Source: a virus. From it: 23,675 bases of DNA. The DNA is taken from the IMG/VR virus record IMGVR_UViG_3300027770_000257, positions 1-23,675 of that record. The stretch is one strand, 5' to 3'. Within the stretch, counting starts at the first letter, position 1; each line of letters begins with the position of its first letter. A program made the position numbers and the translations under genes. The notes under the pieces are model-generated. The model ran no database searches, was not told the DNA's origin, and saw only the letters and a list, made by a program, of their open reading frames with translations. Shown here in pieces: positions 2,918 through 11,701 of the stretch.

Positions 2918-3381
2918 TTTAAATCCTTTTTGTAAATTTCTCCCACTATATCATATTTTAAAAATTTGTATATCTGCCCCACTCGTGGTTCTATCATTGC
3001 GCTGTTGCCCGGTTGAAATTCCACGGCACCCATCTGTTTGGCCCATTTTTCCGCTAGCTTGATAAGCCGCACTGCCATCATGGGAAATTTTTTCCTGTGT
3101 TTGACATCCACGTATAAAAAATAATCACTGCCCATTTTAACATCACAGAAAAAAAAGTTAGTGATGTAGGCCACATACATGCCTATGATCCTGCCTTCAT
3201 ACTTTGCCACCCATCCGTTGACTAGAGTCCTTTTGTGATCATACACCATTTGATCCAGCTGCCTCAACTTATCCGGAAGATATGGTAAGAATTTATATCT
3301 TCCCTCACGGTGCATGTGTGCACCAAGGGCTATCATTTCTTCCACATCTTCGTGTTGATATTCCTGGATAAGGTAACTCAT
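2914..3381 (-). CDS. GNAT-family N-acetyltransferase-like protein
   Basis: A 155-residue protein with the GNAT layout. It has an N-terminal helical part, the beta2-3 stretch GWVAKYEGRIIGMYVAYI (about 56-72), a central strand DYFLYVDVK (86-94), and the helix AVRLIKLAEKWAKQMGA (103-119) that follows the acetyl-CoA loop in this family. The loop itself reads HRKKFP instead of the usual R/Q-x-x-G-x-G/A, so cofactor binding may be altered. The C-terminus KFLKYDIVGEIYKKDL fits the closing strands. The substrate is unknown: phage GNATs can modify host or virion proteins, but nothing here decides that. The stop overlaps the start of the 158-aa gene (ATGA). Confidence 0.75.
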   Translation of the reverse strand: MSYLIQEYQHEDVEEMIALGAHMHREGRYKFLPYLPDKLRQLDQMVYDHKRTLVNGWVAKYEGRIIGMYVAYITNFFFCDVKMGSDYFLYVDVKHRKKFPMMAVRLIKLAEKWAKQMGAVEFQPGNSAMIEPRVGQIYKFLKYDIVGEIYKKDLK

Positions 3382-3384
3382 AGA

Positions 3385-3567
3385 TTAATTTAAATCTTCT
3401 GGGTCTGGTTGTCTAGCATCATCAAATTTTTCTGCAACGATCATGTGCATCTCTGATTGTGATAGATGCATCATCTGATGTTGCACTGCTTTCTCAAACA
3501 TTATTTTAGCAACAGTTTTTTTATTTCTAATTAAGTTTAAGATATCTTCTGCTCTTTTTTCTGACAT
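3385..3567 (-). CDS. Small helical protein, unknown function
   Basis: A 60-residue charged, methionine/histidine-rich, probably all-helical protein. The ATG at 3567 has a good ribosome-binding sequence in the leader ATAAACGAAAGGAA, a 14-base leader also found in front of the tail tubular A gene. It is the first gene of the leftward group after the plus-strand island and lies 3 bases upstream of the acetyltransferase gene. No family was recognised. Its 5' untranslated region carries the large hairpin at 3608-3658. Confidence 0.7.
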   Translation of the reverse strand: MSEKRAEDILNLIRNKKTVAKIMFEKAVQHQMMHLSQSEMHMIVAEKFDDARQPDPEDLN

Positions 3568-3607
3568 GTGTTCCTTTCGTTTATGTACTCTGTCATTTGT
3601 TTTTTGA

Positions 3608-3658
3608 GACTGCAGTTCTTTGGAGCGTCGTGCAAGGAGTTCTTTAGAAGCTGCAGTC
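3608..3658. repeat. Inverted repeat with CTGCAG arms in 5' leader of the 60-aa gene
   Basis: GACTGCAG+TTCT (3608-3619) pairs with AGAA+G+CTGCAGTC (3646-3658), 12 bp with one bulged G, around a loop of about 26 nt. The segment also contains a near-direct repeat of AGTTCTTT[T/A][G/A]GA-like sequence. It lies about 40 bases upstream of the minus-strand start at 3567 and in the divergent region. A leader hairpin, processing site or operator are all possible. Confidence 0.5.
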
Positions 3659-3821
3659 CCAGTATGCCTAAAGCCTATTAGTGAATCATTATATGCCTTA
3701 AGTAAACTATTTAGTATGATACAATAAAAACAGTTTAATTACGAGTTTAAATGTAAAAGAGATTACCAATATAAACTCAATAATTGCGTGCTTTAAAATT
3801 TATTTGATATATACAAGTGAC
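3659..3821. promoter_or_regulatory. Divergent intergenic control region
   Basis: The only divergent junction in the window: minus genes leave from 3567 and plus genes from 3832. It is AT-rich and non-coding. Visible elements are a near-identical direct repeat TATGCCTAAAG (3663-3673) / TATGCCTTAAG (3692-3702), and a 7-bp inverted repeat GAGTTTA (3743-3749) / TAAACTC (3772-3778). A weak sigma70-like pair facing the plus genes, TTGCGT (3784-3789) and TATATA (3808-3813), is also present. Promoter activity in both directions is expected from the arrangement; the exact boxes are tentative. Confidence 0.35.
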
Positions 3822-3826
3822 AGGAG
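3822..3826 (+). promoter_or_regulatory. Ribosome-binding site deciding the start of the 64-aa plus-strand gene
   Basis: AGGAG lies 5 bases upstream of ATG 3832. A GTG at 3817 is in frame but lies upstream of this site, so the ATG is preferred. Confidence 0.7.
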
Positions 3827-3831
3827 CAATA

Positions 3832-4026
3832 ATGAAATACAAAACAAAGTTACAAAGAACATGGCTAAACTTAGGCAAATACGACTGGCTGGCAAAAAAA
3901 TATTACAATAGGCCCTTTGCTCAATTGTTACCTTACCAAAAAGACAAGGTGATCACTTGGGTGACCAATTTCTCTCCGGACCAAGGCAAACATAGAAATA
4001 AATTTATTAAAAGCAACATCAAATAG
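3832..4026 (+). CDS. Small basic protein, first gene of plus-strand island, unknown function
   Basis: A 64-residue lysine- and aromatic-rich protein (several W and Y residues; strongly positive overall), which would suit nucleic-acid contact, though that is inference. The ATG at 3832 is chosen over the in-frame GTG at 3817 because the AGGAG ribosome-binding site at 3822-3826 sits between them with ideal spacing. It is the first of three small genes running opposite to the late operon. The sequence right after its stop leads into the structured region 4059-4411, so it may share a transcript with that RNA. No family was recognised. Confidence 0.7.
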   Translation: MKYKTKLQRTWLNLGKYDWLAKKYYNRPFAQLLPYQKDKVITWVTNFSPDQGKHRNKFIKSNIK

Positions 4027-4058
4027 GCACCCATAGGCTACATAGCATCTCTGAAAAA

Positions 4059-4411
4059 AAGCGAACTACTCTCATATATGAGCGGCGAATCGCTTGATGC
4101 AAAAAATTAAAAAAAGATGAGGCTCTGGGAAACAGATCCAACCTCGGGTCTATATAAGATTACCATACAAAGATTATATAGGCTTGCGTTGTAAACCAAT
4201 AATGAGTTAACGAGTACAGCACAACCGCTCGGCCAAGGCAACGATGTATGGACTATGAAAACACTCAAATCAAGTGTGGGTATTAGGCTAGAAATAGCCT
4301 AATATCTATTCAACATCTAAATCAAGAAAAGGCTTGCGACAGCAAGCAGATGAGCAGAGCTCATCTAATCAATACCCAAACACAGCCACTGACATCATCG
4401 CGGAGAATCGC
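4059..4411 (+). ncRNA. Candidate structured non-coding RNA (novel, multi-helix)
   Basis: The stretch 4027-4459 has no ORF longer than about 25 codons but is dense in perfect stems. P1 is AAGCGA 4059-4064 / TCGCTT 4090-4095, enclosing palindrome CTCATATATGAG. P2 is GAGG 4119-4122 / CCTC 4142-4145, with inner TCTG / CAGA capped by GGAAA. P3 is 4147-4157 / 4174-4184, 11 bp with G-U pairs. P4 is 4186-4192 / 4221-4228, one bulge. P5 is ACACT 4261-4265 / AGTGT 4273-4277. P6 is 4279-4290 / 4295-4306, 12 bp with a GAAA tetraloop. P7 is GCTTGC 4332-4337 / GCAAGC 4342-4347, loop GACA. P8 is AGATGAGC 4348-4355 / GCTCATCT 4359-4366. GGGTATT 4278-4284 can also pair with AATACCC 4371-4377, enclosing the distal hairpins. 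Plus-strand polarity is favoured by the GNRA GAAA cap and the flanking plus-strand genes. No known RNA family was recognised. Confidence 0.55.
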
Positions 4412-4448
4412 AAAGACCACTAAATATCATTACTAATCAATCTATCAT

Positions 4449-4454
4449 AAGGAG
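4449..4454 (+). promoter_or_regulatory. Ribosome-binding site of the 51-aa gene
   Basis: AAGGAG lies 5 bases upstream of ATG 4460. It is a strong match that supports the reality of a gene too short for routine ORF calling. Confidence 0.75.
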
Positions 4455-4459
4455 ACACA

Positions 4460-4615
4460 ATGCCACTATCACGAAAAGGTAAAACCATTTTAAAAGCAAT
4501 GGAAAAAGAATATGGTAAAAAACGTGGAGAACAGGTTTTTTACGCATCAGAGAACAAGGGCACTATAAAGGGTGTCCATATGGGTCGACCAAGAAAAAGT
4601 CTACTCAGCAAGTAA
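4460..4615 (+). CDS. Small very basic protein, 51 aa
   Basis: An ORF of 51 codons plus stop, beginning MPLSRKGKTILKAMEKEYGK and ending in a lysine/arginine-rich tail (HMGRPRKSLLSK). It is preceded by a strong AAGGAG site. The pattern of a basic helix followed by a tract like VFYASENKGTIKG resembles small proteins I have seen in marine phage genomes, but I cannot name a family or role with certainty. Its charge would suit DNA or RNA binding. It lies immediately 3' of the structured RNA candidate and 5' of the 10-bp inverted repeat at 4630-4681. Confidence 0.7.
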   Translation: MPLSRKGKTILKAMEKEYGKKRGEQVFYASENKGTIKGVHMGRPRKSLLSK

Positions 4616-7686: not shown

Positions 7687-7692
7687 CCTCCT
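7687..7692 (-). promoter_or_regulatory. Consensus AGGAGG ribosome-binding site inside the tail-fibre stop codon
   Basis: On the minus strand the fibre ends TAGGAGGATCATATG. The Shine-Dalgarno hexamer overlaps the TAG stop and lies 5 bases from the ATG of the LamG-like gene. It is one of the strongest ribosome-binding sites in the window. Confidence 0.8.
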
Positions 7693-10600
7693 ATGCGAAC
7701 GCTTTCGCTATGTTGCCCAAGAAGTTGGTGCCATCGTTGTAGATGGTCACAACATCAATTGCATTGGCTGCTGTGGACAGAGTGGGTGTGCCACCTGCAA
7801 ATTTTACCGCGGTGCTGGTGTCTGTGCCAAATGTGGCTGTGCGTGATCCCGTGGCATCCTGCACAATGATGATGGTCACTGTCTGGCCACTGCTTAAATT
7901 TGTTATAACAAATCCAGTGTTCACTGCCAGGGTGACCTTGTGTATGGGTGCCAAATTGCAATCCACAGTGATGGTGCTGCTGGATGTCAGAGCATTTTGT
8001 TTTTCTCTGTATCTCTCAATGGTTCCTAATCTTGATTGATAGGTGTCATCTGCTGAATAGAAAGCATATTTGGTTCCTGCAGTGGATCCAGATCCTATGT
8101 AGAATCCATAGTGCGTGGTTTCTAGATTGCTTGTGGTAGATGGTATGTCTGCAAAAGCATAGGCATTGGTGATCTTGTAATTGGTCCCTGCCACACCCGA
8201 GGAACCTCCCCCACCGTTGGTTTCTGATATGAAAGTGTAGCCATTGGTTATTGTAGTGGTGTCAGTGGAGTTACCTCTCACATTCAAGTTACCTCTAACA
8301 GCCATAGCATTGGTCACTGTCAGTGTGCCACCGTGATTTTCATCCACTTGACAAAATGCACTGGCACCAACTAAGTTAGGACCAGTCTTGGTTCCACCCC
8401 CTGAATTGGTCAATACAGCGATAGCAGTAGTCCCCCTTAAAGCTGTCGCTCGTGATCCTGTAGCGGTGGATCCAAATGTGGCACCATTGAGATCAAATAT
8501 GCTCTGGTCATGGTTTCCAATCCTCCAGTTGGTGTTGTTGTATGTGGTTGCAGAAGAATCTGCCTTGGCATAAGTGGTTCTTGAGTTATTGGTTAATCTT
8601 CCATCAAATGTGGTGATATCTGCCACAGATAGATTGGAATAAACCATTTGATTGCCTCTGTAAGAAGCAGAATCCCATTGTGGTATAGAGTTAGATGAGT
8701 TGTAGATGGTGTAAGGGAAATTGGTTGCAGTGAAGGCAGGACCCAAGATGGCCTTACCCGTGCCGTTGGGTTCCACTGTGATGTTGCCGTTGCTGACAGA
8801 AACTATCTGCGAGATCACAGGGCTGGTCAAAGTTTTATTTGTCAATATTTCTGAACCAGTGAGTGTGGCAAAATCTCCATCACTCAATGCTGTGTTAAAT
8901 TGTGCAGTGGTTCCAGATAATGTATTAGAAGTTAAATTAATTGTTTTATTTGTTAAAGTGTCGGTGGTTGCTTTACCCACCAATGTGTCAGTGGCAGTGG
9001 GCAATGTCACTGTGCCTGTGTTGCTGATGCTAGAGATAATAGGTGTGGTCAGGGTCTTGTTGGTCAAGGTCTGTGTGCCAGTCAAAGTGGCCACTGTGCT
9101 GTCTATGGCTATGGTGCCCGTGGATGTTATGGTGCCACCGGTCAATCCCGTGCCGGCAGTGATTGATGTAACCCCACTTGAAACTGTAGAAAAACTTAAT
9201 TGTCCAGAACCATTGGTGATCAACACCTGTCCGTTGGTGCCATCTGCCTGTGGATGACTGATGCCATCTATGACCACGGAACCTGTGCCATTTGGTAAAA
9301 GTGTGATGTTGCCGTTGACACCGTTTGCAATCACAACAGTGCCTGAATTTGTGCCTTCGTTGGTGCTGATCGTGATATTGCCCGTGCCGTTTGTGGTCAG
9401 GGTTGCCGCTGCATTTATATCACCAATCCTCACTGCATCTGCGGTAAGGTATACATCACCTGTGCCGTTGGGAGCGATCTCTATGTTTCTATTTGATGTT
9501 GAAACTATTTTATACGTTTGCACATCAAGATCCGCACCCAGCTGGGGAGTGGTATCAAATGCTATGTCTGTAAGCCATCCTTGGTTATCAACATAAATTT
9601 TTGTTACAGCATCTTGTGAGGCCACTGGATCTGCCACATTGATGATCCTTGCAGAATCCACATTGATATGTCCTGTGCCGTTTGTGATTAAATTAATATT
9701 GTCATTGCTTTGTGTTGCAGTGATGTTGTTGTCAGCTATGGTTATGCTGCCCGTGTCCAGATCTCCTGTGACGTTGCCTGTTACGTTGCCCGTTACGTTG
9801 CCTGTGACGTTGCCTGTGACGTTGCCTGTGTGAACCCCTGCTGTGTTACCTGTGACATTGCCTGTTACATTGCCAGTTAAATTTCCTGTGACATTGGCCT
9901 CCACCGTGCCGGCCACGAATGTTTCTGAGCCTATGGTCCACTTGTCAGTGGTTTCATTCCAAATTAAACTCTTGTCAGCGGACGTGCCTCGTTCAACTTC
10001 GATACCTGCATTTGCTGCGGGAGCACCAGATTGATTGGTTGCTAGTCTTATAATATTGTCTTCTATATCTAACTGTGTGGTATTCAGCGTGGTGGTTGTG
10101 CCTTCCACGGTTAAGTCACCGTTTATTATCACATCGTTGAATGTGCTGGTACCTGTGGTTGCAGTCACGTTGCCTGTTAAGTTACCTGTTACGTTGCCTG
10201 TGACATTGCCTGTTAAATTACCTGTGACAGATGTTGTGGTCAATACACCTGTGCTGGGATTATATGTGAATCCTGTGTCGGTCCTTGGTGACAAGTTGCC
10301 AGTGGCAGCCGAAACAAACAATGGATAATTGGTTGCATTGGTTGTGTTATCCGCAGTTAAAGTTACAGTGGATCCCACACCAGCAGTGGTAGCATTGGTG
10401 GCTGTGTCAGCATTACCTGTTAAGTTACCTGTGACATTACCTGTGACATTGCCTGTTAAATTACCTGTGACAGATGTTGTGGTCAATACACCTGTGGATG
10501 GATTGTATGTGAATCCCGTGTCAGTGCGAGGTGATAAATTGCCTGTGGCTGCTGAAACAAATGTTGGATAATTGGTTGCATTGGTTGTGTTATCTGCTGT

Positions 10601-11701
10601 CAATGTCACCGCTGATGCATATGTGGCAGTGTCAGCGTTGCCTGTCACAGCACCTGTTAAATTTCCTGAGAATGCAGTAGAAGTTAAAATACCTGTGGAT
10701 GGATTATATGTGAATCCTGTATCAGTGCGTGGTGAAAGATTACCTGTGGCAGCTGATGTGAATAATGGATAGTTGGTAGCATTGGTTGTGTTGTCTGCTG
10801 TCAGTGTTACAGCACTGGCATAAGTTGCTGAACCTGCATTGCCAGACACTGTGCCTGTGACATTACCTGTTAAATTACCTGTGACAGATGTTGTGGTCAA
10901 TACACCAGTGGATGGATTGTATGTGAATCCCGTGTCAGTTCTCGGTGAAAGATTACCCGTGGCAGCTGATGTGAATAATGGATAGTTGGTGGCATTGGTA
11001 GAATTATCTGCTGTCAGTGTTACAGCACTTGCGTATGTGGCTGTGTCAGCATTGCCTGTCACATTTCCTGTCACATTTCCTGTTACATTTCCTGTTAAAT
11101 TTTTTACTAACGGGTTGGTCAAAGCAATTGTAATGCTGCCTGTGGAAGTTACCGGTGTGCTGCCTATGGTGATGTTGGCATCTGAAGTGGTCAATCCCAC
11201 GCTGCTTACCGTGCCCGCACCCACTGCAGTTACTTGTGCATTGCCTGATGCATCAAACGATAATATTTTATTTGCTCTCGTGGCAGCCGCTGGAATGATC
11301 AATGTGGCAGTTTCCGCTGTGGGTTCTGCTAATCTAAATACTTTGTCTGTTAATATGTTGTCGATGTCCTGTATGCCCTGTGTCAATCTATCCAACTCGT
11401 TGTTGATGGTAGAAGCAAGGAAAGCACCACCCTGTTCAAAATCTGTTGATCTCACGTTGTACGTGTTCCTTATAAGATACACTGATGCTGCTGCGGAAGG
11501 TGCTGATACAAACACCACCGTGCCTGTGCCCGATGTGCCTGAACTAAATGTGATGGTGTAATCCGTGGTGTAGGTTTTTAACGTGGTGCCCACGTAGACA
11601 TCCAAGCTGCTGCTGTCAGCGATGCTGAAATTGAATGTGAAACTGGTCTGCGATCCGTTCGCTGTGTATTGTACCCTTGGTGTTGCTGTTGATGTAGTCA
11701 T
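7691..11701 (-). CDS. Tail fibre protein with T7 gp17-like N-terminus and repeat shaft
   Basis: A 1336-residue host-recognition fibre. Residues 1 to about 130 match the T7 tail-fibre N-terminal (virion attachment) domain: RVQYTANGSQTSFTFNF, TTDYTITF, STDFEQGG, NNELDRLTQGIQD. Residues about 203-513 form a shaft with four copies of a 70-80-residue unit (TADNTTNATNYP... LSPRTDTGFTYNPSTGVLT) separated by TGNVTGN microrepeats; a second TGNV tract spans about 603-646. The middle continues with NGDLTVEG and TQTLTNKTLT modules common in marine phage fibres. The C-terminus is a distinct beta-rich tip (about 1230-1336). It is much longer than T7 gp17 (553 aa). The ATG has an AGGAAA site. DNA repeats make the gene prone to expansion and contraction. 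Confidence 0.92.
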   Translation of the reverse strand: MTTSTATPRVQYTANGSQTSFTFNFSIADSSSLDVYVGTTLKTYTTDYTITFSSGTSGTGTVVFVSAPSAAASVYLIRNTYNVRSTDFEQGGAFLASTINNELDRLTQGIQDIDNILTDKVFRLAEPTAETATLIIPAAATRANKILSFDASGNAQVTAVGAGTVSSVGLTTSDANITIGSTPVTSTGSITIALTNPLVKNLTGNVTGNVTGNVTGNADTATYASAVTLTADNSTNATNYPLFTSAATGNLSPRTDTGFTYNPSTGVLTTTSVTGNLTGNVTGTVSGNAGSATYASAVTLTADNTTNATNYPLFTSAATGNLSPRTDTGFTYNPSTGILTSTAFSGNLTGAVTGNADTATYASAVTLTADNTTNATNYPTFVSAATGNLSPRTDTGFTYNPSTGVLTTTSVTGNLTGNVTGNVTGNLTGNADTATNATTAGVGSTVTLTADNTTNATNYPLFVSAATGNLSPRTDTGFTYNPSTGVLTTTSVTGNLTGNVTGNVTGNLTGNVTATTGTSTFNDVIINGDLTVEGTTTTLNTTQLDIEDNIIRLATNQSGAPAANAGIEVERGTSADKSLIWNETTDKWTIGSETFVAGTVEANVTGNLTGNVTGNVTGNTAGVHTGNVTGNVTGNVTGNVTGNVTGDLDTGSITIADNNITATQSNDNINLITNGTGHINVDSARIINVADPVASQDAVTKIYVDNQGWLTDIAFDTTPQLGADLDVQTYKIVSTSNRNIEIAPNGTGDVYLTADAVRIGDINAAATLTTNGTGNITISTNEGTNSGTVVIANGVNGNITLLPNGTGSVVIDGISHPQADGTNGQVLITNGSGQLSFSTVSSGVTSITAGTGLTGGTITSTGTIAIDSTVATLTGTQTLTNKTLTTPIISSISNTGTVTLPTATDTLVGKATTDTLTNKTINLTSNTLSGTTAQFNTALSDGDFATLTGSEILTNKTLTSPVISQIVSVSNGNITVEPNGTGKAILGPAFTATNFPYTIYNSSNSIPQWDSASYRGNQMVYSNLSVADITTFDGRLTNNSRTTYAKADSSATTYNNTNWRIGNHDQSIFDLNGATFGSTATGSRATALRGTTAIAVLTNSGGGTKTGPNLVGASAFCQVDENHGGTLTVTNAMAVRGNLNVRGNSTDTTTITNGYTFISETNGGGGSSGVAGTNYKITNAYAFADIPSTTSNLETTHYGFYIGSGSTAGTKYAFYSADDTYQSRLGTIERYREKQNALTSSSTITVDCNLAPIHKVTLAVNTGFVITNLSSGQTVTIIIVQDATGSRTATFGTDTSTAVKFAGGTPTLSTAANAIDVVTIYNDGTNFLGNIAKAFA
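9762..9896 (-). repeat. TGNV coding microrepeat (second tract)
   Basis: Tandem 12-base units (GACGTTGCCTGT-like on the plus strand) encode consecutive T-G-N-V residues, about 11 units with one interruption near 9833-9842. They produce the misleading VTLPVTLP open frames on the opposite strand. Confidence 0.8.
10165..11095 (-). repeat. Four tandem long repeats in the fibre shaft
   Basis: Four copies of a 210-240-bp coding unit begin at about residues 217, 289, 356 and 431. Each encodes the TADN[S/T]TNATNYP to NPSTG[V/I]LT block, followed by a variable number of TGNV/TGNL units. The copies differ by synonymous changes and a few substitutions (PLFTSAA, PTFVSAA, PLFVSAA), so they are not recent perfect duplications. 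Confidence 0.85.

Follow-up and report, generated by a model that had tools for sequence, protein, structure and literature searches.

A conserved phage RNA with a pseudoknotted core and two equal internal repeats, in one superfamily with Polynucleobacter-1 RNA

The window analyzed here is the whole of a 23,675-base IMG/VR virus record (IMGVR_UViG_3300027770_000257), in which T7-like structural genes occupy the minus strand and a stretch free of plus-strand open reading frames (ORFs) is flanked by an acetyltransferase-like gene and a small plus-strand gene. This stretch holds the subject of this report, a structured RNA of ~320 nt without a protein product (positions 4043 to 4366, plus strand). 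A sequence-only reading of the DNA had claimed a region of about 430 bp with no usable ORF, placed at positions 4059 to 4411, and had proposed that it specifies a large, ornate phage RNA. We found no plus-strand ORF of 40 amino acids or more there, just two antisense ORFs (40 and 53 amino acids), and the proposal of an ornate RNA is strongly supported by covariation across dozens of relatives. The 5′ limit of 4059 was too late, however, as the RNA begins at approximately position 4043 with a 5′ domain that covaries in relatives.

The segment from 4027 to 4459 was predicted to fold at −104.8 kcal/mol, far more stably than 100 dinucleotide-shuffled controls (−80.6 ± 5.6 kcal/mol; z = −4.30), none of which reached the native energy. 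When folding was scanned in sliding segments, the signal fell at 4176 to 4550 on the plus strand (z = −5.0 and −4.1); adjoining plus-strand segments were without significance, and antisense segments at 3301 to 3675 (n = 2) gave z values of −3.4 and −3.8. We concluded that the folding signal is local to the RNA locus.

For the core, we aligned 38 diverse sequences. RNAalifold returned 43 pairs, with compensatory changes in 25. A structure of 47 pairs, extended to take in two pseudoknots, had 97.0% of its alignment cells paired (versus 81.0% when shuffled and 31 to 42% when slid), with 33 of the 47 pairs changing on both sides in a compensatory manner. The 5′ domain, examined in an alignment of 27 sequences, had 99.3% of cells paired and a covariation of 0.344, versus 0.119 when shuffled. 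These comparisons show that the RNA folds into a 5′ domain, a core built on pseudoknots (P1, P2, P4, P5, PK1, and PK2), and the hairpins P7, P8, P10, and P11. The features of the locus are as follows.

3784 to 3822, plus strand: promoter-like element (TTGCGT, 18 nt, TATATA, then CAAGTGACAGG), recognized by inspection from its resemblance to the element of T4-like relatives
3832 to 4026, plus strand: ORF for a 64-amino-acid basic protein, between the promoter-like element and the RNA, found just in the window lineage and in L004
4043 to 4100, plus strand: 5′ domain, GCAUC (4045 to 4049)/GAUGC (4096 to 4100) and AGCGA (4060 to 4064)/UCGCU (4090 to 4094), with the conserved internal loop ACUAC...GGCGAA
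4118 to 4146, plus strand: P1 (UGAGG/CCUCG) with inner P1a (CUG/CAG), from the alignment
4147 to 4184, plus strand: P2, 11 bp, with compensatory changes in 9 of 11 pairs; its loop holds a PK1 strand
4163 to 4169, plus strand: 5′ strand of PK1, CCAUACA; 7 of 7 pairs covary, and 99.2% are paired with 4245 to 4251
4188 to 4225, plus strand: P4, GUUGU (4188 to 4192)/ACAAC (4221 to 4225), from the alignment; becomes GUAAG/CUUAC in L126
4211 to 4231, plus strand: PK2, CGAG (4211 to 4214)/CUCG (4228 to 4231), an H-type pseudoknot with P4; 100% paired
4232 to 4239, plus strand: P5, a short hairpin; 2 of 2 pairs covary, 100% paired
4245 to 4251, plus strand: 3′ strand of PK1, UGUAUGG, partner of 4163 to 4169
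4261 to 4277, plus strand: P7, hairpin ACACU/AGUGU with R1 in its loop, judged by eye only, in most relatives
4267 to 4274, plus strand: direct repeat R1, AAAUCAAG, from sequence comparison
4279 to 4306, plus strand: P8, 12 bp, with a GAAA tetraloop; 7 of 10 counted pairs covary, 98.7% paired
4319 to 4326, plus strand: direct repeat R2, AAAUCAAG; conserved pairing was looked for here and none was found
4332 to 4347, plus strand: P10, hairpin with a GACA loop, from the fold; equivalent in most relatives
4348 to 4366, plus strand: P11, terminal hairpin of 8 bp with a 3-nt loop, from the fold; equivalent in most relatives

PK1 joins the P2 loop to a strand ~80 nt downstream and also forms, by inspection, in the distant relatives L209, L219, L183, L188, L184, and L021. 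PK2, with compensatory changes in two of its four pairs, surrounds the near-invariant GUACAG...AACCGC. These pseudoknots (4163 to 4169/4245 to 4251 and 4211 to 4214/4228 to 4231) are among the most important pairings and were missing from the sequence-only reading, which had correctly named the helices that we call P8 (12 bp with GAAA, 4279 to 4306), P10 (GCUUGC/GACA/GCAAGC, 4332 to 4347), and P11 (8 bp with a 3-nt loop, 4348 to 4366). The long-range GGGTATT/AATACCC pairing that it also described is probably not native, because the conserved helix at 4279 to 4306 already uses its 5′ strand as one arm and its other side (4371 to 4377) lies outside the part common to distant relatives. P11, in which an A-U pair in one and a G-C pair in the other distinguish the window and L004, is the probable 3′ end of the RNA; the recurrence of P10 and P11 in most relatives was judged from single-sequence folds.

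P8 and P11 are perfect inverted repeats and, together with the direct repeats, lie in an intergenic gap, as would suit an origin or packaging site in which the hairpins act as DNA. However, G-U pairs, which a DNA duplex does not favor, are frequent in P2 and PK1 (one PK1 pair is UG in 24 of the 38 sequences) and therefore favor an RNA over a DNA structure, and the pseudoknots are conserved. We regard a DNA element as highly improbable.

Relatives were sought with exact-motif scans, nhmmer, and a covariance model, and because the scans relied on exact motifs, all locus counts are lower bounds. Contigs related through the terminase yielded an identical contig (L001) and L004, the RNA of which is 93.7% identical to that of the window over ~303 nt, with flanks that decay and with some of the changes compensatory. 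A 16-base motif taken from the RNA found ~26 further contigs, a second motif raised the profile matches to more than 100 loci on uncultivated phage contigs, and a third found 48 loci, all 48 of which were the same RNA by the covariance model. A scan for the window's own variant of PK2 returned two loci already known and one coding false match (L367). The core covariance model gives the window, which is one of its training sequences, a score of 121.5 bits. Among bacterial genome contigs, there were 66 pattern matches, and the core model confirmed four metagenome-bin contigs (L300, L322, L326, and L333), which are probably phage contigs; across 61 genomes of the genus of the L333 bin, a strong core-model score occurred in that bin alone. 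The RNA is also found on jumbo-sized contigs of 111 to 330 kb. Two of these are multicopy (G013 and G012; loci L416 to L421): the contig of 236 kb has two copies and that of 318 kb has four, which lie in separate places and carry differing repeats.

No homologues were found by blastn with nine subfamily queries against annotated phages, which gave some weak matches outside the RNA, and the core model had no match in the examined stretches of Atu_ph07, Phosso, PA5oct, and Vibrio 2.275.O, which have a similar gene order, or of Melnitz and phiM12, which have a related GIY-YIG gene. Gene-poor gaps with strong folding signals occur in two of these cultured jumbo phages, Sinorhizobium phage Phosso (L336, 8224 to 9237; z to −6.3) and Pseudomonas phage PA5oct (L337, 7529 to 9041; z to −7.8), next to a resolvase gene at a similar position in the gene order; neither gap matched Rfam or the core model. 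The close terminase relative L007 likewise lacks the core by the core model, though its locus is structured. At this locus, the close T7-like terminase relatives have a different structured noncoding stretch (~3,200 to 3,850 of the locus in L007, reverse strand; z to −5.5). It starts with TAGGCAACATAGCA, has two hairpins of similar form at its end, and may be a replacement or an extremely divergent version of the RNA.

The Rfam scan gave no match in the window, so that, with covariation present and folding far beyond the shuffled controls, three of the four outcomes named in the sequence-only reading as refuting its proposal did not occur. The earlier description of the RNA as undescribed thus holds for the window RNA, the core and 3′ half of which match no Rfam family, but not for a distant subfamily, the 5′ part of which is RF01718, Polynucleobacter-1 RNA. 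A 2010 paper catalogued this piece among candidate RNAs of bacteria, listing it for Burkholderiales and fresh water or estuary and scoring it with a lower-case “y” both for RNA and for cis-reg (Table 1 of PMC2864571); the exact phrase “Polynucleobacter-1 RNA” did not occur in the literature text searched. RF01718 matches L403 and L408 and, at its gathering threshold (37 bits over the 141-nt model), 17 of 18 further loci, and the core lies directly 3′ of the match in all 19; the window is hit by the same core model. RF01718 itself finds nothing in the window at E ≤ 1 or even at E ≤ 10. It ends before the core. By inspection, the two may have in common the 5′ internal-loop motif ACUA...CC/GG...CGAA (ACUAC...GGCGAA in the window and CACUAuCC...GGAcGaa in RF01718), and both are without known function. 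The window RNA is by comparison a divergent member of a larger superfamily that includes the Polynucleobacter-1 RNAs; by the Rfam criterion, it is not itself a Polynucleobacter-1 RNA. The family as a whole is spread very widely among aquatic bacteriophages and is nearly undescribed. An obscure 141-nt Rfam entry would become the 5′ end of a large, widespread phage RNA, and a suspected bacterial leader would be recast as a phage transcript.

Most of the loci are T4-like, with gp47/gp46-like genes upstream and baseplate hub, tape-measure-like, and portal-like genes downstream. A SegE-type GIY-YIG gene (PF19835) is present in 89 of 122 loci, mostly as the next gene upstream (the cluster may hold a few spurious frames), and in seven distant loci it is replaced upstream by a gene that, judged from its sequence, is Holliday-junction resolvase-like. 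The best PHROG of the GIY-YIG protein (e.g., L150, 5647 to 6111, minus strand) is labeled “NAD synthetase,” a product name also found in isolates, which is probably a propagated misannotation. In the T4-like relatives, a sigma70-like element, TTGAC(A/C) ... TATATAC/TATAAAC AAGTGATAGGCA, lies directly upstream of the RNA. A mechanical promoter scan of the window was at chance level, and its promoter-like element was assigned by comparison only; the T4 late promoter TATAAATA had no exact match upstream of the RNA among the loci listed.

Polynucleobacter-1 RNA was listed as a possible cis-regulator, and the window has a gene of the same orientation (4460) next to the RNA, ~90 nt downstream, as would suit a cis-regulatory leader or riboswitch of that gene. 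However, a conserved same-strand gene is not found downstream: the nearest conserved downstream gene is on the plus strand in 43 loci and on the minus strand in 38, and its identity varies too. In L240, L241, L244, and L268, which carry RF01718 itself, the next conserved gene is convergent. Because the downstream genes differ in both identity and strand, the RNA is most simply read as standing alone, with RF01718 here a piece of a phage-borne, stand-alone RNA. We are highly confident that it is a conserved stand-alone phage RNA and consider a leader very improbable.

Signatures of tRNA, tmRNA, introns, or riboswitches had not been recognized in the earlier reading, and Rfam and ARAGORN scans bore this out. 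A tRNA or tmRNA was rejected since neither program had such a match in the window; a group I or II intron was rejected since there was no Rfam match and the RNA lies between two complete ORFs; and a riboswitch was rejected since there was no Rfam match and the downstream strand is not conserved. The core with its multiple pseudoknots, the GNRA-type tetraloops that P8 and P10 carry in many relatives, and the identical sites on either side of a hairpin might instead suggest a new class of ribozyme or self-splicing element, with R1 and R2 as its two reaction sites. We think this unlikely, as no Rfam intron or ribozyme matched, no gene is interrupted in the window, and there is no internal guide complementary to R.

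Among the large RNAs of Rfam, neither GOLLD, ROOL, OLE, and HEARO nor any other had a model match in the window. GOLLD and ROOL are likewise large, ornate, phage-associated RNAs without known function; the present RNA is smaller (about 320 to 450 nt), has equal internal repeats, and has no Rfam match to either. Being large, ornate, stand-alone, and phage-borne, it could be a scaffold for RNA-only oligomers, a form of assembly with GOLLD, ROOL, and OLE as precedent (PMC12286853). The window's lack of similarity to any Rfam family and its equal, noncomplementary repeats, which do not point to kissing loops, make this a rather unlikely explanation.

The repeats R1 and R2 are short direct repeats that flank P8; R1 occupies the loop of the P7 hairpin, and R2 seems to be unpaired. 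They are equal within one RNA, and the string differs between RNAs (ACCACAG, AGCACAUA, AAAUGAA, AGAUGAU, and AACGUGAUG are among those in 94 RNAs), even between copies in a single phage (ACGAAAU and a GACA-type string in one; CGGAAAU alongside AGGUAAU in a second). Across the 94 RNAs, the length of the word shared by the regions before and after P8 averaged 7.56 within the same RNA, versus 5.90 (highest, 6.21) in 200 re-pairings. To our knowledge, internal repeats that are equal but variable are unusual.

Our favored explanation is a noncoding phage RNA that stands alone and acts in trans, with two identical sites for contact with a single partner; its overall confidence of roughly 0.6 lies between that in the conserved RNA, which is high, and that in the mechanism, which is lower. 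The RNA would be transcribed from a host-type sigma70 promoter, and the looped R1 of P7 and the unpaired R2 downstream of P8 would recognize one partner twice or alternately; this mechanism of two-site recognition, taken by itself, we propose only tentatively. The element before each repeat recurs, and in several subfamilies the strand between P7 and P8 can pair, by inspection, with either copy, which may let the RNA alternate between two conformations. This alternative pairing would account for the equality of the preceding elements, not for that of R1 and R2. The partner would most likely be another RNA or DNA recognized through pairing and, less likely, a dimeric protein.

Several observations weigh against this proposal. 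No consistent complement of R was found between −300 and +450 nt, and in 40 to 60 kb of aligned relatives no other site switched together with R, which makes a phage-encoded target there unlikely. Some of the distant members (L212, L183, L188, L240, and L418) have a repeat that is short or hard to delimit, and the three-strand switch, which may form, was seen by inspection only. With no partner found and a strong palindrome between the repeats, the RNA could be real and the equality of R1 and R2 a functionless product of concerted evolution (slippage, direct repeats beside a palindrome). However, each copy keeps differing linkers between the two halves, and R1 and R2 are equal even across very divergent subfamilies; we hold this to be an improbable account of the repeats.

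The IS110 bridge RNA carries two recognition stretches in one RNA, whereas the present R1 and R2 are equal, not independent, and no recurrent recombinase-like gene was recognized within 6 kb of the 122 loci, the neighbor clusters of which were only partly scanned against family libraries. ToxI-type antitoxin RNA combines repeats and pseudoknots in a phage-related RNA; in contrast, there are just two repeats here, and they are not in tandem. No toxin-like family was found among the selected neighbors scanned with Pfam and PHROGs. A doubtful further reading is that these are phage guide RNAs of a new class, in which a conserved pseudoknotted scaffold would show two copies of a changeable 7- to 10-nt sequence and a phage could carry several versions, each with its own nucleic-acid partner. 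The repeats would matter greatly if they were guides, and both structure and function are open to testing, given the more than 100 matched members, the covarying pseudoknots, and the multicopy contigs of jumbo phages.

The small basic genes noted earlier on each side of the RNA are present (64 and 51 amino acids) but are not its conserved partners: the 51-amino-acid gene is missing from L004 despite the 93.7%-identical RNA, and neither gene adjoins the RNA in the T4-like phages. Independently of the RNA, the 51-amino-acid protein (4460 to 4615, plus strand) has at least 125 relatives on viral contigs; neither Pfam nor PHROGs gave a match for it. Elsewhere in the window, positions 7691 to 11701 (minus strand) encode a fibre-like protein of 1,336 amino acids with many GNVTGNVTGN repeats.
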